Shown here: one piece after another, positions 8,019 through 34,172 of the stretch
How the letters are laid out: every line of letters begins with the position of its first letter
Position numbering within the stretch: position 1 is the first letter of the stretch
NCBI GenBank assembly: GCA_903899375.1
Contig: CAIUIT010000100.1
Span: 1-35,325, forward strand
Source of the DNA: an uncultured Actinomycetes bacterium
Lineage (GTDB): Bacteria > Actinomycetota > Actinomycetes > Nanopelagicales > Nanopelagicaceae
Length of the DNA: 35,325 nt
Direction of reading: 5' to 3'
Translations under genes and position numbers: made by a program
Notes under the pieces: generated by a model
What the model was told of the DNA's origin: nothing
Databases searched by the model: none
What the model saw: the letters and a program-made list of their open reading frames with translations, nothing else

Positions 8019-9551
8019 GTGTCGAAGATAGTTGTCATTGGCGCAGGCGTAGGTGGTATGACGGTCGCCGCCCGTCTGGCAAAACAAGGACATGAAGTCG
8101 CTATCTATGAAGCATCTGATCGCACCGGGGGCAAGTGTCGAACAGAATGGATCGGCGATTACGCCTTTGATACCGGACCATCGCTACTGACACTTCCCGC
8201 TATCTATAAAGATTTCTTTCTTAAGACCGGCCCACGCTTTGAAAGAGTGCTAACTAGCACCGCCGTCAATCCCTCATTTACCTATAACTTTGCCGATGGA
8301 AAGAGCGTTGACTTCATCAATCTCGATCTTCCCAAGACCTGTGCCGCTATCGATGCGTCGCTTGGCGTCGCAGCTGGTAACGCCTGGCATACTCTCATGC
8401 AACGCGCAGAGATAATGTGGGATATCTCCAGAGTTCCCTTCGTGCAATCCGAACTTACCTCCATCTGGAGCTTGCTCAAACGTCGCGATTTAATACGTGG
8501 AATTCGACAGATCGCCCCATACAAATCTTTACGCAAGGTAACAAGAGAATATACGCACGATCAACATATTCAAAAGATCATCGATCGCTACGCAACTTAT
8601 ACGGGTTCAGATCCGCGCAAGGCTCCCGCTGCGCTTTTAACTATCGCCTTCGTGGAAGCCAGTTTTGGTGCCTGGCACTTGTCGGGCGGAATTGGTCAGT
8701 TGAGCGTTGCGCTAGAAGATCGCTGTCGCCTGCTCGGAGTTGATATTCACCTCAACTCCGCCGTTACAAAGATCAATACCGCAGCAGGAACCGTCACAGG
8801 AATAACTCTGGCAGATGGCGAGCAGGTAAGCGCAGATTTAGTTGTTGCTAATGCCGATGCCGAAATCGTTTACAACCAGCTTTTAGAACCCACTGTGCGC
8901 CAAGCAAAATCCGAACGCAAAAAGTTGAAGCGCGCCGAGAAATCTTTGGCAGGTTTCTCGCTCTTGCTGGGGCTCGATAATTCCAAGATGGATGGCCCTT
9001 CTCCCGAAATTAACCATCATTCCATTTACTTCCCAGCAGATTACGATGCTGAGTTCGATGCAATCTTCACCAAACACATTCCGGCTGCAGATCCAACCAT
9101 CTATATCTGCGCTCCGCGCGACCCCTTGATGGTTAAACGTGAAGGTACTGAGAATTGGTTCGTCCTAGTAAATGCTCCCCGGCATGATCCTGCATCTGGA
9201 TGGGATTGGAGTACGGGTGGTGAAAAATATGCAGAACAAATCATTGCAAAACTTGATGCGTTGGGGCTACGAGTGAGCGAACGTCTTGATGTAATGGAAT
9301 ATAGGACGCCGCTTGATCTGCAAAATGAGACCAACGCTCCTGGTGGATCTATCTATGGAACATCTAGCAATGGAGCGATGTCAGCATTTTCTCGCGCCAA
9401 GAATCGATCTCCTGTACAGGGTCTCTTCTGTGTTGGTGGATCAGCTCATCCAGGCGGTGGACTACCCCTGGTCGGAATTAGCGCGGAGTTAGTCGCCGAG
9501 GCGATCGGTGGCACTCAAACGGGTGTAGCCGCTGCGCATCACAGTCACTAA
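8019..9551 (+). CDS. crtD: CrtI-family carotenoid desaturase, CrtD-like (3',4'-desaturase)
   Basis: 510 residues. The N-terminal FAD-binding fold is IGAGVGGMTVAARLAKQGHEVAIYEAS with GGKCRTE, then FDTGPSLLTLP. The C-terminal family signature includes YRTPLDLQNETNAPGGSIYG, GLFCVGGSAHPGGGLPLVG. It differs strongly from the CrtI at 12096-13577, and the C-terminal segment is that of CrtD/methoxyneurosporene-dehydrogenase types, which introduce a 3,4 double bond next to a 1-hydroxy group; CrtNb-like oxidases are an alternative. It follows cruF and the glycosyltransferase without a gap (GTG start at 8019). Its last 63 bp overlap the 3' end of the opposing CDP-alcohol phosphatidyltransferase gene. 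Confidence 0.82.
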   Translation: MSKIVVIGAGVGGMTVAARLAKQGHEVAIYEASDRTGGKCRTEWIGDYAFDTGPSLLTLPAIYKDFFLKTGPRFERVLTSTAVNPSFTYNFADGKSVDFINLDLPKTCAAIDASLGVAAGNAWHTLMQRAEIMWDISRVPFVQSELTSIWSLLKRRDLIRGIRQIAPYKSLRKVTREYTHDQHIQKIIDRYATYTGSDPRKAPAALLTIAFVEASFGAWHLSGGIGQLSVALEDRCRLLGVDIHLNSAVTKINTAAGTVTGITLADGEQVSADLVVANADAEIVYNQLLEPTVRQAKSERKKLKRAEKSLAGFSLLLGLDNSKMDGPSPEINHHSIYFPADYDAEFDAIFTKHIPAADPTIYICAPRDPLMVKREGTENWFVLVNAPRHDPASGWDWSTGGEKYAEQIIAKLDALGLRVSERLDVMEYRTPLDLQNETNAPGGSIYGTSSNGAMSAFSRAKNRSPVQGLFCVGGSAHPGGGLPLVGISAELVAEAIGGTQTGVAAAHHSH

Positions 9552-10127
9552 AGCAATTGCTTGCTGCACAGTCCAGACGACTGCAAGTGTTGTTATTGCA
9601 GAAACTTTGATGTCATAAGCCAAGATCGCGACCGCTAAAAAGGATGCACGAACCGGCCGTTCTGCGATCGTTACGACATCAATGCGATAGTCCCCAAGTC
9701 CCGCAATGCGGGCACGGCAATATTCTTGAGTAAATGCGAGCACCCAGGCTATAGCAATCAACCAAGCGGGTGCCCCAAGTTTATAAAAGGCGAGAGCCCA
9801 GAAGGTTTCTCCAATACGATCGCTAAGAGCATCTATCATCGCGCCTCGCTTGCTTGCCTTGCCACTTAAAATCGCAACCGAGCCATCAATCCCGTCGCTG
9901 ACCAGTGAAATGCCAAGGAGGACGATGCAATAATTTCTGTTGGCCTCAGAATATGTGAAGATCGCGGCAATAACTCCGATGAAGCTCAATAGATTGGGTG
10001 AAACTTTTAAGCGAACGAGCGGTCGGGAAATGGCATACGAGATAGCAAGCCAGCCTTTAACTACCCCCGTGACATACGCTCCGCCGTGGAGTTCACTCCA
10101 TCGAGTAAAGAATTCTTCACGTTTCAT
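9489..10127 (-). CDS. CDP-alcohol phosphatidyltransferase family membrane protein
   Basis: 212 residues from ATG 10127, which overlaps the metF stop (ATGA); a longer frame to 10226 lies wholly inside metF and is rejected. About six membrane segments. The CDP-alcohol motif D-x2-DG-x2-A-R-x8-G-x3-D-x3-D is present as D78, D81, G82, A85, G95, D99 and D103, but Ile86 replaces the usual Arg. Enzymes of this family join CDP-diacylglycerol to glycerol phosphate, inositol phosphate or other alcohols in the membrane. The substitution and the unusual metF neighbour leave the substrate open. The 3' end overlaps the opposing crtD by 63 bp, so both proteins depend on the same bases for their C-termini. 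Confidence 0.78.
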   Translation of the reverse strand: MKREEFFTRWSELHGGAYVTGVVKGWLAISYAISRPLVRLKVSPNLLSFIGVIAAIFTYSEANRNYCIVLLGISLVSDGIDGSVAILSGKASKRGAMIDALSDRIGETFWALAFYKLGAPAWLIAIAWVLAFTQEYCRARIAGLGDYRIDVVTIAERPVRASFLAVAILAYDIKVSAITTLAVVWTVQQAIALVTVMRSGYTRLSATDRLGD

Positions 10128-10987
10128 CGCAATCCAATGTTCTTTACGATCGCCGTCGTAGCTGCAGCCTTGTTCATAGTATAGAAATGGATTCCAGGAA
10201 CACCAGCCCTTATCAATTCTTCGCACAGTTGAGTCGCAATCTCTATTCCTAATGCAACTCCCGCTTCTTCATCACCTGCTACGTCAGCAAATCGTTTGCT
10301 GATCGACGCTGGAATATGGGCCCCTCCCAGATCAGCCATGCGAGAAAGCTGCTTGAAGTTAGTTATTGGGAGTACGCCCGCGATGATGGGCAGGGACGAG
10401 CCCACAGCGGCGAGCGCATCAACCAATCTCGTATACGCCTGAATATCGAAGAAGAACTGCGTTGTGGCGAAGGAAGCTCCATGTGCCTCCTTGCGGAGCA
10501 AGGTCTGAATATCGGCGGCCAGGTCTCCGTGCGAAGCGGGATGCCCATCAGGAAAGGCCGCCACACCTACGGCGAAGTTGCCGCGTGCACAGGCGAGATC
10601 TACCAATTGGTCAGCATGATCGAATCCGCCATCGGTGGAAACCCACCGAGCGCTCGGGCCCCCGCTTGGATCACCGCGCAGCGCCAGAATCGTTGAAATA
10701 TTCGCTGATTGATATTGATCCAAAATCTTCTCGAGTTCAGCCTTGGTTGAACCCACGCACGTGAGGTGGGCTACCGTTGGAATGCCTGTGTGAATTGTAA
10801 GTTCTGAGGCGATACGGATCGTTCTGTCGCGAGTGGATCCCCCTGCACCATACGTCACCGATACAAAGTCAGGGGTCAGCAGCGCCATCTCTTCGACCGC
10901 CTCCCAGAGGCGTGACTCCCCCGACTCATCCTTCGGTGGAAAGAGTTCGATAGAGAACGTTGTGGATTTCTCAGTTCTCGTCTTCAT
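10124..10987 (-). CDS. metF: Methylenetetrahydrofolate reductase
   Basis: 287 residues from ATG 10987; the frame runs to 11080 but would then overlap crtE. The TIM-barrel MTHFR family is clear: FSIELFPPKDESGESRLWEA at the N-terminus with the catalytic Glu, DFVSVTYGAGGSTRDRT, VAHLTCVGST, ILALRGDPSGG, FAVGVAAFPDGHPAS and ATTQFFFD. It reduces 5,10-methylene-THF to 5-methyl-THF, using FAD, for methionine synthesis. Length is normal. It begins 24 bp from the divergent crtE start, and its stop overlaps the phosphatidyltransferase start. It appears to be an ordinary housekeeping gene placed between the two carotenoid blocks. Confidence 0.93.
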   Translation of the reverse strand: MKTRTEKSTTFSIELFPPKDESGESRLWEAVEEMALLTPDFVSVTYGAGGSTRDRTIRIASELTIHTGIPTVAHLTCVGSTKAELEKILDQYQSANISTILALRGDPSGGPSARWVSTDGGFDHADQLVDLACARGNFAVGVAAFPDGHPASHGDLAADIQTLLRKEAHGASFATTQFFFDIQAYTRLVDALAAVGSSLPIIAGVLPITNFKQLSRMADLGGAHIPASISKRFADVAGDEEAGVALGIEIATQLCEELIRAGVPGIHFYTMNKAAATTAIVKNIGLR

Positions 10988-10995
10988 AGCGGAGC

Positions 10996-11005
10996 AGGGT
11001 ACCGT
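10996..11005. promoter_or_regulatory. Interleaved divergent -10 boxes of metF and crtE
   Basis: The only 24 bp between the two start codons contain TACCGT on the plus strand (11000-11005, 6 nt before the crtE GTG) and TACCCT on the minus strand (11001-10996, 8 nt before the metF ATG). They share two bases around a GGTACC palindrome. Both transcripts would be leaderless or nearly so, and initiation in one direction should hinder the other. Confidence 0.6.
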
Positions 11006-11011
11006 TACCGA

Positions 11012-12079
11012 GTGGACTTTGATGGCATTCGCGGACTCACTGGAGCAATCAACACTTCTCTCGGCGAATTTTTTGATCACGAGTCAACATACCTGCGAAA
11101 AATAGGCAGCGAACTTAATCCAGTAGCCGATGCACTCGGCCGTTTTCTGCTAGACAGTGGAAAGCGTCTGCGCCCCCTTTTCGCCACGATAGGTTATTTA
11201 GGAGCCGGCGGAGAACTCACTCCACAGATCATTCGCGCCACATCAAGTTTGGAATTAGTACACGTATGTGCACTCATTCATGATGATGTCATGGATGCAT
11301 CAGATACAAGGCGTGGTGCACCTGCAATACATAAACAGTTTGAGGGTCTTCATGACGCTCAAGGTCTGCACGGTAGCAGCGAACAATTTGGAGTCGCTTC
11401 GGCGATCTTGCTCGGGGACCTCGCCCTTATCTGGGCCGCGAAGGCGTTGCATGAATCCGGGGTGCCCTCTGAAAGCATTCTGCACACTCTTCCGGTCTAC
11501 GACGAGATGCGCGTTGAATTGATGGCCGGCCAATACCTGGATGTGCACGAACAAGCCCTTGCCAGTGAGAGTGTCGAACGTTCTCTGAAAGTTGCCCGAT
11601 ACAAATCCGGGAAGTACTCCATTGAACGCCCATTACATTTTGGCGCCAGTCTTGCTGCGGGATCTTCGCCACAGGTCATCGAGATCTATTCAGGCTATGG
11701 TCTACCGCTGGGAGAAGCTTTCCAACTTCGCGATGATGTCATAGGAGTCTTTGGGGATCCCGAGAAAACCGGCAAGCCCGCAGGCGACGATCTCCGTGAA
11801 GGTAAGCGCACTGTATTAGTCGCCATGACACTTTCCAAGGCAAATTCCGCCCAGCGAGCAGAATTCCTCGAAAACTTTGGCCGTAAGGATTTGGATTCAG
11901 GACGGATCGATTCTTTGCGGCAGATCATCGTCGATACCGGCGCACTTGCCGAACTCGAAACTATGATCGAAGTCATGACATTCAAAGCGCATGATGCACT
12001 CTCACATGGTGGAATTACCCCAGAAGCCGTCACCTACTTAAATGAGATGGCTGTCGCTGCAACACAACGCAGCTCGTAG
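11012..12079 (+). CDS. crtE: Geranylgeranyl diphosphate synthase-type polyprenyl synthase
   Basis: 355 residues, GTG start. Trans-isoprenyl diphosphate synthase features: GKRLRP (residues 50-55), the first aspartate-rich motif DDVMD (91-95), GDLAL, and the second region DDVIGVFGDPEKTGKPAGDD from 241. It elongates IPP onto allylic diphosphates, most likely to GGPP for phytoene synthesis. The start is fixed by a TANNNT -10 box six bases upstream and by metF on the other strand. crtI follows with a 16-nt gap and a good ribosome-binding site. No other GGPP-consuming gene is in the window. Shorter or longer chain length cannot be fully excluded. Confidence 0.9.
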   Translation: MDFDGIRGLTGAINTSLGEFFDHESTYLRKIGSELNPVADALGRFLLDSGKRLRPLFATIGYLGAGGELTPQIIRATSSLELVHVCALIHDDVMDASDTRRGAPAIHKQFEGLHDAQGLHGSSEQFGVASAILLGDLALIWAAKALHESGVPSESILHTLPVYDEMRVELMAGQYLDVHEQALASESVERSLKVARYKSGKYSIERPLHFGASLAAGSSPQVIEIYSGYGLPLGEAFQLRDDVIGVFGDPEKTGKPAGDDLREGKRTVLVAMTLSKANSAQRAEFLENFGRKDLDSGRIDSLRQIIVDTGALAELETMIEVMTFKAHDALSHGGITPEAVTYLNEMAVAATQRSS

Positions 12080-12083
12080 ATAT

Positions 12084-12089
12084 AAGGGG
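12084..12089 (+). promoter_or_regulatory. crtI: Ribosome-binding site deciding the crtI start
   Basis: AAGGGG lies 6 nt before the GTG at 12096. The open frame extends back to 12042 inside crtE, but this Shine-Dalgarno sequence and the family N-terminus support the GTG. Confidence 0.7.
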
Positions 12090-12095
12090 TCCTGG

Positions 12096-13577
12096 GTGCG
12101 TCAAGTTAAAGGCAAGAGCGATCATGTGGTCATTGTTGGAGCTGGCCTTGGTGGTTTGAGCGCTGCGCTCCGCCTAGCCGGTGCAGGTCGCAAGGTAACG
12201 GTAATCGAACGCGAATCAGTTCCGGGCGGTCGCAATGGATTGCTGCAACGGGACGGTTACTCGTTTGATACGGGGCCATCCGTTTTAACCATGCCATCTT
12301 TAATTGAAGATGCACTCGCCTGTGTAGGAGAAGATATTAAGGACTGGCTCGAACTCGTCCCAGTCGATCCGCTCTACCGCGCTTTCTACCACGATGGAAC
12401 TCATCTCGACGTCCATGCCGACACTCAGAGAATGCAAGATGAGATAGCAACAAAGATCGGGGCCACAGAAGCGGCCGGTTATGGAAGGTACGTTGACTTC
12501 GTTACTAAGCTTTACAAATACGAGATGAATGATTTCATCGATCGAAATATCGATTCACCTTTGAATTTGGTTACACCTAACCTCGCGCGATTGGTTGCGC
12601 TCGGTGGATTCCGTCGTTTAGCCCCAAAGGTCAATCAGTTTCTCAAAGATCCAAGAACTCAGAAGGTTTATTCATTCCAGGCAATGTATGCAGGTGTAAG
12701 CCCACAGCAAGCTCTCGCTATATACGCCGTTATCGCATATATGGATTCGGTCAACGGGGTCTTCTTCCCTAAAGGTGGCATGCATGCTGTCCCTCGTGCT
12801 TTAGCAGGAGCGGCCGAAAAGCATGGCGTCACGTTCAAGTACAACACGACTGTTACGACCGTCGAAAAAAGTAATAACCGCGCCACCGCCGTGATCACCG
12901 ATACTGGTGAACGTATCGAGTGCGATGCGCTCATTTTAAATCCAGATCTGCCCGTCGCTTACCGTGATTTACTGGGCTATACCCCGCGCAAGGTTAAGAA
13001 CCTTCAGTACTCACCATCGTGCGTAACGCTGCTGGTGGGAACTAAGAAGAAATACGATCACCTCACCCATCACAATATTCACTTTGGAGAATCATGGGAT
13101 CAGGTCTTTGATGAACTGATCAATAAGCAAACGTTGATGACCGATCCAAGTCTTCTGGTCACAATTCCCACCTACGATGACCCTTCATTAGCTCCCAAAG
13201 ATCGCTCCTCGTATTACATCCTCTTTCCTACGCCTAATCTAGATGCCAACATTGATTGGCGCACTGAAGGACCGCGCTACCGCGATGAAATGCTTCGCAT
13301 CATGCAGGCTCGTGGCTATGAAGGATTTGCCGACTCGATCGAAGTCGAAGAGCTGACAACACCCTTGGATTGGCAGGAACGTGGAATGGAGCGCGGCGCC
13401 CCCTTTGCTAGCGCGCATACATTCTTTCAGACCGGTCCATTTAGACCACGTAATCTGGCGCAAGGCTTTGAAAATGTGGTCTTTGCGGGATCAGGAACCC
13501 AACCTGGTGTTGGCGTACCGATGGTTTTAATTTCTGGTCGCTTAGCCGCAGAACGAATTGTGGGAGCGACAAAATAA
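12096..13577 (+). CDS. crtI: Phytoene desaturase
   Basis: 493 residues. N-terminal FAD-binding fold VIVGAGLGGLSAALRLAGAG, then VPGGRNGLLQRDGYSFDTGPSVLTMP, a typical CrtI N-terminus. The C-terminal signature TPLDWQERGMERGAPFASAHTFFQTGPFRPRN leads to VVFAGSGTQPGVGVPMVLISGRLAAERI. CrtI converts phytoene to lycopene (or a less desaturated product) in four steps using FAD. It sits between crtE and crtB, the usual early carotenoid operon. The next gene's GTG starts 2 bp after this stop. The number of desaturation steps cannot be predicted from sequence. Confidence 0.92.
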   Translation: MRQVKGKSDHVVIVGAGLGGLSAALRLAGAGRKVTVIERESVPGGRNGLLQRDGYSFDTGPSVLTMPSLIEDALACVGEDIKDWLELVPVDPLYRAFYHDGTHLDVHADTQRMQDEIATKIGATEAAGYGRYVDFVTKLYKYEMNDFIDRNIDSPLNLVTPNLARLVALGGFRRLAPKVNQFLKDPRTQKVYSFQAMYAGVSPQQALAIYAVIAYMDSVNGVFFPKGGMHAVPRALAGAAEKHGVTFKYNTTVTTVEKSNNRATAVITDTGERIECDALILNPDLPVAYRDLLGYTPRKVKNLQYSPSCVTLLVGTKKKYDHLTHHNIHFGESWDQVFDELINKQTLMTDPSLLVTIPTYDDPSLAPKDRSSYYILFPTPNLDANIDWRTEGPRYRDEMLRIMQARGYEGFADSIEVEELTTPLDWQERGMERGAPFASAHTFFQTGPFRPRNLAQGFENVVFAGSGTQPGVGVPMVLISGRLAAERIVGATK

Positions 13578-13578
13578 A

Positions 13579-14478
13579 GTGGATGAGTTAACCGCTGCTG
13601 GAATAATTGATCCGGTACTCCGTGCCTCATATGCAGAGTGCAAGCGACTTAACTCTTTACACGGCAAGACTTATTACTTGGCAACGCTTCTGCTTCCTAA
13701 AGCAAAGCGCCCCCACGTTCATGCGCTCTACGGTTTTGCCCGGTATGCAGATGAGATAGTTGACGATCTCGCATCTTCTCTCTCGATCCCCGAGAAATCA
13801 GCCCTCTTAAAGAGTTGGGGTGATGGGGTTCTTGCCGATATTCGTCGGGGCACCAGCAATGACCAGGTAGGTCGTGCGCTGGTCGACACCGTACAACGAT
13901 TCGACATCCCCATTGCCCACTTTGAAGCATTTCTTCGCTCGATGACCATGGACCTGTCCATCACTCAGTATCAAACGTACGAGGACCTTATGGAATACGT
14001 TTATGGGAGCGCCGCAGTCATCGGCTTACAGATGGTTCCAATTCTCGGTGCGACCGATCCCGCTGCTTTTGCGGCGGCAGAAAAGCTCGGAGTGGCTTTC
14101 CAACTTGCCAATTTCATTCGGGATGTTAGCGAAGATCTCGATCGCGGACGTATTTATCTACCTCTCGATGAATTGCAAGCTGCGGGCGTTACGCCAGAAA
14201 TGTTGGCCGAAAAGAAATTAACCCCCGAGATAAAAGCAGCCCTCACCTTCCAGATAGCAAGGGTGCGTCGCCTACAGGCGGAAGCTTCTGCTGGTATCAA
14301 ACTTTTGGACCGTTCTAGCCAGCCATGCATCAACGCCGCCTCCGAACTGTATTGCGGAATTGTTGACGAAGTAGAGAAGGTCAACTACGAAATCTTTGCT
14401 CAGAGGGCAACCACTTCTACCTGGCGTAGGCTCAAAGTCGCACTCCCTGCTTACGCCAAGGCGCTCCAAGCGCGCTAG
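13579..14478 (+). CDS. crtB: Phytoene synthase
   Basis: 299 residues from GTG 13579, which directly follows the crtI stop; the frame continues upstream to 13558 inside crtI. Squalene/phytoene synthase motifs: YYLATLLLPKAKRPHVHALYG, the first aspartate-rich DEIVDD (residues 58-63), and the second QLANFIRDVSEDLDRGRIYLP with its conserved RD..ED. It condenses two GGPP molecules to 15-cis-phytoene, the first committed step. Last gene of the crtE-crtI-crtB operon. Immediately downstream lies a TPP riboswitch that belongs to the next gene; no clear terminator separates them. Confidence 0.93.
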   Translation: MDELTAAGIIDPVLRASYAECKRLNSLHGKTYYLATLLLPKAKRPHVHALYGFARYADEIVDDLASSLSIPEKSALLKSWGDGVLADIRRGTSNDQVGRALVDTVQRFDIPIAHFEAFLRSMTMDLSITQYQTYEDLMEYVYGSAAVIGLQMVPILGATDPAAFAAAEKLGVAFQLANFIRDVSEDLDRGRIYLPLDELQAAGVTPEMLAEKKLTPEIKAALTFQIARVRRLQAEASAGIKLLDRSSQPCINAASELYCGIVDEVEKVNYEIFAQRATTSTWRRLKVALPAYAKALQAR

Positions 14479-31286: not shown

Positions 31287-32072
31287 CTAGCCAATTTCGA
31301 GCGTGAGGAGCGCGTGTAGGGCTGCTCCAGCGGCAATAACCATCTCCTCCCCAGGAGGAGCGCCCTTTCGAGCGCTCACGATAGCCCCAGCTTCTCGGGC
31401 AATCAGCCCCCCGGCAGCTAGATCCCACTCCTTAAGCCCTATTTCATAATAACCGTCAACTGAACCGCTGGCCACGTGGCAGAGGTCGACTGCGGCGGCC
31501 CCATTTCTTCGGATATCGCGGACCCGAGGGATCAAATCTGCAATCTTCTCCCCCTGTCGCACCCGCTCATCCACATCGTAGGAAAATCCCGTCGCAATCA
31601 ATGAATCTTCTAAGCGATCTGCCTTGGAGCAATGGATCGCTCGGTCATTGAGAAATGCCCCTCCTCCTCGACTGGCGCGCCAGAGCGAATTGAGCGTAGG
31701 CGCATAGACGATTCCGATAAGAACTCCGTCAGCATCCTTCGCTGCAATGCTGATATTCCAACCAGGTAAGTTATAAAAATAATTAACCGTGCCATCAATC
31801 GGATCGATCACCCAGGTGATACCCGATTGGGACTCCCGGTTTGCCCCCTCTTCGCCGATGATTCCATCACCCGGGCGCGCTGCCAGAATTTCGCCCACAA
31901 TCATCTTCTCGCAAGCAATATCCATGTGTGTAGCGAAGTCACGCGCTGAACTCTTCTCGTTGATATCGAAGGTGTCGGGGCGATTGCTCAGAAGTTCACC
32001 AGCCCGCTGCGCGATCCCCTCTGCGAGGATGAGTAGTTCATTGATGAGTTCAGTCTGCGGTTGCTGCTTCAT
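31287..32072 (-). CDS. Inositol monophosphatase family protein
   Basis: 261 residues. Metal-binding signatures are present: GEEGANRES near residues 76-84, [24 protein letters not shown] near 90-113 (the family DPxDGT), and a C-terminal [19 protein letters not shown] (WD.AAG). Members remove phosphate from inositol, histidinol phosphate or other sugar phosphates; which one cannot be told here. It starts from a bidirectional leaderless promoter shared with the MFS gene. It is 89 nt upstream of L19 and may or may not be co-transcribed. Confidence 0.9.
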
Positions 32073-32075
32073 GGC

Positions 32076-32084
32076 TAGAATCTA
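32076..32084. promoter_or_regulatory. Interleaved divergent -10 boxes of IMPase and MFS genes
   Basis: Only 15 bp separate the two ATGs. TAGAAT (32076-32081, plus) and TAGATT (32084-32079, minus) overlap by three bases inside the near-palindrome CTAGAATCTAG, and each lies exactly 6 nt before its ATG. Both mRNAs would be leaderless. Confidence 0.65.
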
Positions 32085-32087
32085 GGT

Positions 32088-33284
32088 ATGTTTTCACCAT
32101 ATCGCAAACTTTTCGCGGTACCGGGTGCGTTTCGATTTTCCATAGCTGGTTCAATCGCTCGATTACCAATATCTATGACCTTGCTCTCGATCACCTTTGT
32201 CATTGTGCATGTAAAGCATTCATATACCTTGGCGGGAACGGTCTCCACGGGAGCCGCCTTGATTTCGACGGTTTTTAGCCCAACCTGGTCGCGTTACGCA
32301 GATCGACTCGGGCAACGCAAGGTGCTGCGATTTACCATCCCCTTCTACATCATCTTTGATCTCATCTTTCTCATCGCCATTAGCAAGCACGCCCCCACCT
32401 ACATTTGGATGAGCGCGATCTTCCTAGCCGAAGTCTTCCTTCCCAATGTTGGCGGCCTGATTCGCCGGCGCTGGCTCTGGGTTCTCTCCGAAGATCGGGT
32501 AATGATCAATACCGCGTATTCCTATGAAGCCTTGGTCGACGAAATCATTTTCATTATCGGCCCTCTCGTCGCAACCTCAGCGGCAACTTTTATCGCCCCA
32601 GCTGCCGGGATGATCATGGGATTTTCTTTCATGGCGGTCGGAACAACTCTCTTCATCTCGCAACGATCGACCGAGCCACCTCCTTTCAAGAAAGATGAGA
32701 GCGGAAAGCATGGATTTGTTTTAGCTATGCCGGTTGTACAAGCCGTCTTCTTTCCATTTATTTTTCTCGGCTCGTTCTTTAGCGCGACAAATCTCGCTGT
32801 AGTCGGCTACGCCCAGCAACATCACCATGTCGCATATACAGGTCTAGTACTTGCAATCTGGGGGGTAGGAAGTGGAATTGCCGCGCTCTTCAACGGCTCC
32901 ATCAAGTGGCGTCTGTCCGACGCCTCGCGCTTTCGCATCAACCTCCTTGCGATCATGGTTCTGACACTTCCCTTCTTCTTCATCCACTCAATGGTTATGT
33001 TGACAGTTGCTCTATTTCTCTCAGGAATTGCGGTGGCGCCGTTGATCGTGGCGGGATACAACGTTGCAGAGAAATCCGTACCCCCCGAAAAAGTCACCGA
33101 AACTCTCTCCTGGGTGATTGCTGGCCTTTCGCTGGGAGGCGCTCTTCCCGGAACGCTCACCGGACATATCATCGACTCACAAGGAGCGAGCAAGGCCTTT
33201 ATTGTCCCGATCCTCGCCCTCGTTCTGGCCAACCTCGCAACCCTGCCCTACCTGCGCACCTGGCGGCGAATTTCTGATCACTAG
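32088..33284 (+). CDS. Major facilitator superfamily transporter
   Basis: 398 residues, twelve predicted membrane segments in two halves separated by a charged loop near residue 200 (FKKDESGKHG). The first loop after segment 2 has SRYADRLGQRKVLR, the MFS loop motif of the form G-x3-D-R-x-G-x-R-K. The second half contains SLGGALPGTLTGHIIDSQG near 345-363. Predicted proton-driven uptake or efflux of a small solute; substrate unknown. Starts from the shared divergent promoter and is followed after 51 nt by sepH. Confidence 0.85.
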   Translation: MFSPYRKLFAVPGAFRFSIAGSIARLPISMTLLSITFVIVHVKHSYTLAGTVSTGAALISTVFSPTWSRYADRLGQRKVLRFTIPFYIIFDLIFLIAISKHAPTYIWMSAIFLAEVFLPNVGGLIRRRWLWVLSEDRVMINTAYSYEALVDEIIFIIGPLVATSAATFIAPAAGMIMGFSFMAVGTTLFISQRSTEPPPFKKDESGKHGFVLAMPVVQAVFFPFIFLGSFFSATNLAVVGYAQQHHHVAYTGLVLAIWGVGSGIAALFNGSIKWRLSDASRFRINLLAIMVLTLPFFFIHSMVMLTVALFLSGIAVAPLIVAGYNVAEKSVPPEKVTETLSWVIAGLSLGGALPGTLTGHIIDSQGASKAFIVPILALVLANLATLPYLRTWRRISDH

Positions 33285-33323
33285 CATCACCCAAATATCC
33301 CAACCTTGACCCCCCTGTTGTGG

Positions 33324-33329
33324 CACTCT
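33324..33329 (+). promoter_or_regulatory. Possible -10 box of sepH
   Basis: CACTCT lies exactly 6 nt before the GTG at 33336, which would give a leaderless transcript, but it lacks the T of TANNNT. Weak. Confidence 0.3.
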
Positions 33330-33335
33330 TTGCCC

Positions 33336-34172
33336 GTGAGCGACTTACGACTAATTGGACGATCAGAAGATGGCAGCGAACTCGAGTTGCAATCGAAAGA
33401 TGGCACGCACTTCAGCCTTCGAATTAGCGATCACCTCCGCTCTTTAGTCAACCAGCCCCGTTTAGTTTCAGTTGTCTCCGAGGATGAGCAGTCGACGGTT
33501 ACCGTCAAAGATGTTCAGGCGCGCCTGCGCGGTGGCGAGAGCATCGACTCAATAGTGCGCAACTCCGATTGGAGCGCGGAAAAGGTAGAAAAATTCTCTG
33601 GACCTATCCTGCAAGAGCGCGCGTATGTCATCGGCTTGGCGCTCGCCGCGCAACTGCGAAAAGAGAAGCACGCTCCGACTTTAATGTCCGCAACAATTTC
33701 ACAACTTGCTCCTCGTGGAGTAGATATGGCGCTGGTCGAGTGGAATACCTGGCGCCTGCCAGATGGCTCGTGGAACATCATCCTTTTTTATCCGACCAAG
33801 AACGGTGGAACTAGCGAAGCGAATTGGTCTTTCGATTTAGCTAATCGCAGCCTGGAAGCGCTCGATGATGATGCAGCGTGGATTGCTGGAGATGAGTTAG
33901 AAGCTCAAAGCGCCGTTCCATCTCACGGAATCGTCTACCCCGCGACAACGCCAGCACCGCGATTAGTTGCGGTCCGTGAAGGTGTCGATCGCATGGAATA
34001 TCCAGACCCGATCAAGATTTCTAGCCTAGATGCCATCATAAATTCAGGACCAAGTCAGGCAGATAGTGCCTCCGATGCCGAAAAGCGCGATGGGATTACT
34101 AAGCGTTTAAAGATTCCCTCATGGGACGACATCATGTTCGGCGGTCCTAAAGAAACTTCAGAAGAGGAATAG
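33336..34172 (+). CDS. sepH: Cell division regulator SepH (DUF3071)
   Basis: 278 residues from the GTG at 33336; a TTG at 33306 adds ten unconserved residues. The N-terminus SDLRLIGRSEDGSELELQSKDG and ISDHLRSLV match SepH proteins, followed by the helix-turn-helix region LRGGESIDSIVRNSDWSAEKVEKFSGPILQERAYV at about 62-96. The C-terminal half is acidic and less conserved. In Streptomyces, SepH binds FtsZ and promotes Z-ring assembly. It is widely paired with a phosphodiesterase gene, present here on the opposite strand and overlapping it by 26 bp. Confidence 0.88.
   Translation: MSDLRLIGRSEDGSELELQSKDGTHFSLRISDHLRSLVNQPRLVSVVSEDEQSTVTVKDVQARLRGGESIDSIVRNSDWSAEKVEKFSGPILQERAYVIGLALAAQLRKEKHAPTLMSATISQLAPRGVDMALVEWNTWRLPDGSWNIILFYPTKNGGTSEANWSFDLANRSLEALDDDAAWIAGDELEAQSAVPSHGIVYPATTPAPRLVAVREGVDRMEYPDPIKISSLDAIINSGPSQADSASDAEKRDGITKRLKIPSWDDIMFGGPKETSEEE

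Follow-up and report, generated by a model that had tools for sequence, protein, structure and literature searches.

A 15-nucleotide intergenic region as a putative bidirectional leaderless promoter between divergent phosphatase and transporter genes of an uncultured actinobacterium

An inositol monophosphatase family (IMPase) gene and an MFS transporter gene of an uncultured Actinomycetes bacterium (Nanopelagicaceae) diverge from an intergenic region of only 15 nt. On sequence comparison, this region is best read as a leaderless version of a known bacterial type, the bidirectional promoter, one that is genuine, unusually compact and under strong conservation. Good descriptions exist of leaderless translation and of bidirectional promoters separately; their combination at one element appears to be new. 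The region lies within a stretch of 35,325 nt (contig CAIUIT010000100.1), referred to here as the window, and its features are listed in Table 1.

Table 1. Features of the divergent IMPase/MFS region (window coordinates) and of the glpD/glpK site elsewhere in the genome.
Feature	Position	Strand	Evidence or remark
IMPase gene, 261 aa	31287..32072	-	PF00459, E 1.2e-58
CAT, start codon of minus gene	32070-32072	-	sequence
Predicted transcription start, A of IMPase ATG	32072	-	inferred from 6-nt spacing (T at -7) and genome-wide leaderless signal
Whole intergenic region GGCTAGAATCTAGGT, proposed bidirectional leaderless core promoter	32073..32087	.	sequence; 15-nt length constant in 19/19 genus loci
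-10 hexamer TAGAAT of MFS gene	32076..32081	+	sequence; invariant in 19/19 loci, zero inferred changes
-10 hexamer TAGATT of IMPase gene	32079..32084	-	sequence; invariant in 19/19 loci, zero inferred changes
Predicted transcription start, A of MFS ATG	32088	+	inferred from 6-nt spacing (T at -7) and genome-wide leaderless signal
ATG, start codon of plus gene	32088-32090	+	sequence
MFS transporter gene, 398 aa	32088..33284	+	PF07690, E 1.3e-20
Probable -35 TTGCGA of IMPase promoter, 17-bp spacer, in MFS codons 5-7	32102..32107	-	TTGCG in 19/19 loci
glpD/glpK site	G000:C138:11338-11360 (L285:1501-1523)		both hexamers 6 nt from GTG/ATG; canonical 18-bp class

As the earlier note had described, the two -10 hexamers overlap and each ends exactly 6 nt from its ATG; the shared nucleotides are the three at 32079-32081. 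Around them, CTAGAATCTAG (32075-32085) forms a perfect, odd-centred inverted repeat. Both starts are forced, each being the first start codon downstream of an in-frame stop. Read from the sequence, that stop is the TAG that opens the gene's own -10 box, 12 nt before the ATG (32076-32078 on the plus strand, 32084-32082 on the minus strand). Neither start has a convincing Shine-Dalgarno site; the best anti-Shine-Dalgarno duplex is -3.0 kcal/mol for the transporter, where it touches the start codon, and +0.4 for the phosphatase. Leaderless genes are recognised by the lack of such a site and by a TANNNT box, enriched genome-wide, about 6-7 nt before the start codon. Both starts show these marks, the box lying at exactly 6 nt on either side. 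Bidirectional promoters are recognised by opposite-strand -10s that share bases, as TAGAAT and TAGATT share 3 bp. The transcription starts predicted from the -10 spacing are 16 bp apart, inside the small variation stated for such promoters and outside their preferred classes (18, 10 and 23 bp). The IMPase family protein reached no NCBIfam equivalog cut-off. Elsewhere in the window (8019-14478), translations suggest by eye a carotenoid-like cluster with two CrtI-like frames, a prenyl transferase and a CrtB-like frame.

The genome comprises 1.38 Mb in 138 contigs. The sample used here covered 944,444 bases in 119 sequences, including the window, and 752 genes were called with a simple script, under which some starts are uncertain. 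Of 1819 candidate start codons in early positions, 129 (7.1%) have a TANNNT ending exactly 6 nt upstream, compared with 0.24% of late in-frame start codons (n=6249), a 29.5-fold excess for early starts. None of the other offsets from 0 to 25 rose above 4.7-fold. Because of this enrichment, leaderless promoters look routine in this genome, as far as sequence can indicate. The box is carried by 127 of the 752 called genes, with ATG as start codon in 100 and GTG in 27, and its third base is most often G (41%). Among the 87 called divergent pairs of the 944 kb, both genes are preceded by a leaderless box in seven, and the boxes overlap in the window's pair only.

The transporter was searched in 60 relatives and matched in 51, and the phosphatase was matched in all 32 genus genomes in which it was searched. 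These relatives are metagenome-assembled genomes labelled uncultured actinobacterium, Actinomycetes, Actinobacteria or Actinomycetota bacterium; judging from the isolate names, they are probably Nanopelagicales-like lineages from freshwater or peat. The two genes stand back to back in 19 genus genomes. Alignments and the tree were made from 19 loci with a full-length transporter, drawn from 18 genomes (one with two copies). The set excluded L021, which has a partial transporter and an identical core, and L018, L020, L022 and L023, which are without the layout.

In all 19 loci the 15-nt length and the nine-base core TAGAATCTA are identical, at transporter identities down to 57%. On the two-gene tree, Fitch changes number 0 at all nine core positions and at intergenic positions 2 and 14, and 1, 5, 2 and 3 at positions 1, 3, 13 and 15. 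Four-fold degenerate sites changed on average 7.4 times in the MFS gene (68 sites) and 7.2 times in the IMPase gene (52 sites), or about 7.3 times over all 120. By this comparison the layout is conserved within one genus, and it is more than a chance arrangement, since the core stayed invariant in 19 loci while four-fold sites changed about 7.3 times each. The palindrome, whose conservation the earlier note had proposed to check, is unchanged across its nine core bases. The same note had named substitutions breaking both hexamers in relatives as evidence that would count against it; refutation on this ground fails because both hexamers are intact at every locus.

Its further suggestion, that any -35 elements lie inside the opposing genes, was borne out for the IMPase direction, where TTGCGA (32107-32102) is the probable element, and not for the transporter direction. 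The CGC codon of Arg6 in the MFS gene, which lies in TTGCGA, is the sole unchanged four-fold site (one of 68 in this gene, one of 120 in both). Its conservation may be due in part to codon preference, because the same codon occurs in L018 and L020, both of which are without the promoter layout and have altered hexamers. A spacer of 17 is where TTG peaks upstream of the leaderless -10s of this genome (8 of 127), which otherwise have weak -35 sequence. The transporter direction yielded no conserved -35; its spacer-17 candidate, GTCTGC, is unconvincing and varies between loci. The extended -10 (TG at -15/-14) is absent at this promoter and occurs in 4 of the 127 leaderless genes.

Very probably, the region is a compact bidirectional promoter of the housekeeping sigma factor with start sites at the two start codons. 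Two TANNNT -10s on opposite strands, overlapping by three bp (TANANTNTA), would allow RNA polymerase with this sigma factor to load in either direction on the same nine bp. It would do so singly, as predicted from the geometry of the shared -10s. In each orientation the RNA would begin on the first base of the gene's own start codon, so that both mRNAs would be leaderless. Transcription of the IMPase gene would probably gain from the -35-like TTGCGA embedded in the transporter codons, and the transporter direction appears to rely on its -10 alone; the two directions would presumably differ in strength. The name given by the earlier note, "bidirectional leaderless promoter", agrees with the routine 6-nt -10s, the hexamers intact in 19 of 19 loci and the want of a convincing Shine-Dalgarno site. 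Its description as close to the smallest possible also seems fair. A 14-nt layout is geometrically possible and occurs at one site in 32 genomes; a 12-nt layout is possible too, and its pattern is absent from the 944 kb.

In the bidirectional promoters described by Warman, Grainger and colleagues, a pseudo-symmetrical shared -10 drives divergent RNAs, with one polymerase bound at once (PMC12825309, PMC10268837). Their start sites are mostly 18 bp apart, 10 and 23 bp also being common (PMC12825309). The element described here resembles them in its shared opposite-strand -10 region, but its predicted starts are 16 bp apart rather than 18. Because of this distance, the -10s overlap by 3 bp instead of 5, and the -7 and -11 positions are not reciprocally coincident. 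A further difference is that the mRNAs predicted on both sides lack leaders and that the promoter core takes up all of the intergenic DNA. Leaderless genes of Actinobacteria can be told by a TANNNT some 12 bp upstream of the start codon (PMC3160421). For Mycobacterium tuberculosis, 26% of genes with a primary start site are reported as leaderless, and the species has leaderless mRNAs as well as divergent promoters in juxtaposition (PMC3898074). The present element shares the TANNNT box with such genes; ordinary cases are one-directional, whereas this one faces both ways. The divergent pair prpD/Rv1129c of M. tuberculosis is leaderless on both sides, and the source passages are silent on -10 overlap (PMC3898074). 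Judged on titles and abstract openings, no paper was found that joins leaderless translation and a bidirectional promoter at one element.

A search was made in the genus for the generalised 21-mer CAY-N3-TANANTNTA-N3-RTG (16 bp between starts), with the reversed pattern as control. It is present in 26 of the 32 genomes (30 sites), the control in 2 of 32. This difference, and the single occurrence of CTAGAATCTAG in 944 kb, also argue that the layout is more than chance. By listing, 20 sites are phosphatase/transporter pairs, nine involve yczE, and one is a further site (G031:C272). Of the 30 sites, 26 were examined with their flanks, and every one has long facing reading frames to either side (17 phosphatase/transporter, 9 yczE). 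The yczE gene was identified by NCBIfam NF052291, above cut-off. Its partner through the same 15-nt layout is uppP (PF02673) in five cases and a DUF554 gene (PF04474) in four. These pairs, from nine other genomes of the genus, have a geometry identical to that of the IMPase/MFS region, with unrelated genes and different bases where the sequence is free to vary (TAGACTCTA, TAAACTCTA), and the layout is constant while the partner differs between species. In G015 and G002 (L248, L252), the yczE/uppP region has widened to 32 nt from the original 15, and yczE has gained a further -10 downstream of the formerly shared one. Two yczE sites come from other genera of the family, one with a DUF554 partner (L278) and one with a UppP-like partner named by eye (L279).

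Beyond the genus the pattern is not enriched. In the order sample, 17 of 133 genomes outside the genus matched, and 2 of 10 loci examined were true pairs, both yczE. A phylum-wide class was considered and rejected, the 16-bp pattern being found in 26 of 396 phylum genomes and the control in more (45, hand count). Among the 25 phylum loci examined, only L207 is open for at least 100 aa on both sides.

Other geometries were compared with their reversed controls by hand sums over the 32 genomes. Observed and control counts were 47 and 63 for 18 bp, 0 and 6 for 17 bp, 1 and 0 for 15 bp, and 107 and 52 for 23 bp; by count, only 16 bp (30 against 2) and 23 bp lie above control. In this genome glpD (PF01266, PF16901) and glpK (PF00370, PF02782) are divergent with overlapping -10s, TTAGAATAC. 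Like the IMPase/MFS region, this site has both hexamers 6 nt from the starts, but it is 17 nt long and of the 18-bp class. It was picked out because 11 genus genomes have similar 23-mers, not by enrichment. A candidate of the 23-bp class, whose count is twice its control, lies between an aldehyde dehydrogenase gene and a divergent gene at a contig end (L138:127-154; AAGTTTACTCTT), with similar sites in several genus genomes. At L105:661-695, TerC-family and HhH-GPD DNA-repair genes diverge across 29 nt; here two back-to-back TAGGCT boxes lie in an almost perfect inverted repeat, and 6 nt separate either box from a GTG.

Changes at the IMPase/MFS pair itself are also found among relatives. In G015 (L018), the transporter has a different upstream neighbour and the phosphatase is on another contig. 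There, TAGAATTTC retains the plus hexamer TAGAAT 6 nt from GTG, and the minus half has decayed to TTTC. Phosphatase genes of the genus without an adjoining transporter mostly have an asymmetrical TANNNT 6 or 7 nt upstream, e.g., TAGGAT, TAAGAT or TACGAT (the 7-nt cases were identified by eye). The pair is also divergent in three further genera of the family (G034, G035, G036), where the -10-like boxes, as judged by eye, are separate and do not overlap; thus, the overlap is not required for this pair. With regard to the region 31287-34172, in genus genomes that lack the transporter the DNA immediately upstream of the phosphatase looks, by eye, like the beginning of sepH (DUF3071). Because of this adjacency, the transporter gene looks to have been inserted into, or lost from, an IMPase/sepH junction.

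Both promoters might work and yet their overlap might be a passive outcome of genome compaction, the sharing having no regulatory effect; we put the chances of this at about even. In E. coli bidirectional promoters, basal transcription is reported as too low for polymerase competition (PMC12825309), which matters only once one direction is activated (PMC12825309; PMC10268837). Sharing is dispensable at the yczE pair of G015 and G002, since these have opened it to 32 nt with a new yczE -10, and there is no evident functional link between the IMPase and the transporter. Against passive overlap, it is unbroken in 19 of 19 loci, although three other genera use separate -10s for the same pair.

That the palindrome is instead a transcription-factor operator for one or both genes, its resemblance to -10s being secondary, we regard as improbable. 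The perfect inverted repeat and the invariance of all nine core bases would suit an operator, as would the invariant positions 6, 8 and 10 of 15, which a pair of TANNNT boxes does not need. However, the yczE pair has the same geometry with other free letters, a better fit to TANNNT constraints, and G015 keeps only the half that serves its remaining gene. A regulon was also rejected: an operator would be expected as the same palindrome at several promoters, and CTAGAATCTAG has one copy in 944 kb. Still less probable is that the main transcripts carry 5' leaders and begin within the opposing genes, upstream of intergenic hexamers that would be incidental: internal and antisense starts are reported as common in actinobacteria, from M. 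tuberculosis data (PMC3898074), but both hexamers show zero changes over 19 loci, the enrichment at exactly 6 nt is genome-wide, and a led mRNA would have no Shine-Dalgarno to use.

If the bidirectional leaderless promoter is as proposed, it would be about the smallest regulatory region that two divergent genes could share. A broader and more tentative suggestion, to which we give somewhat less than an even chance, is that start-to-start bidirectional promoters are a recurring part of streamlined freshwater actinobacteria, with fixed geometries (16, 18, perhaps 23 bp) and outputs coupled by exclusion. The shared -10 core and two 6-nt spacers would then be all the intergenic DNA, and neither gene could move without destroying the other's promoter, because the start codon would be the transcription start. 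Exclusion of polymerase on the nine shared bp would tie the outputs of both genes, and the layout could survive a change of partner gene, as for yczE with uppP or DUF554. Nature supplies controls in which the partner is lost, the partner differs or the spacing has opened. If the element is real, very short DNA could be used to ask directly how a symmetrical promoter comes by its direction, and whether, where a cell has few other means of control, the exclusion of one polymerase by another links the activity of two genes.
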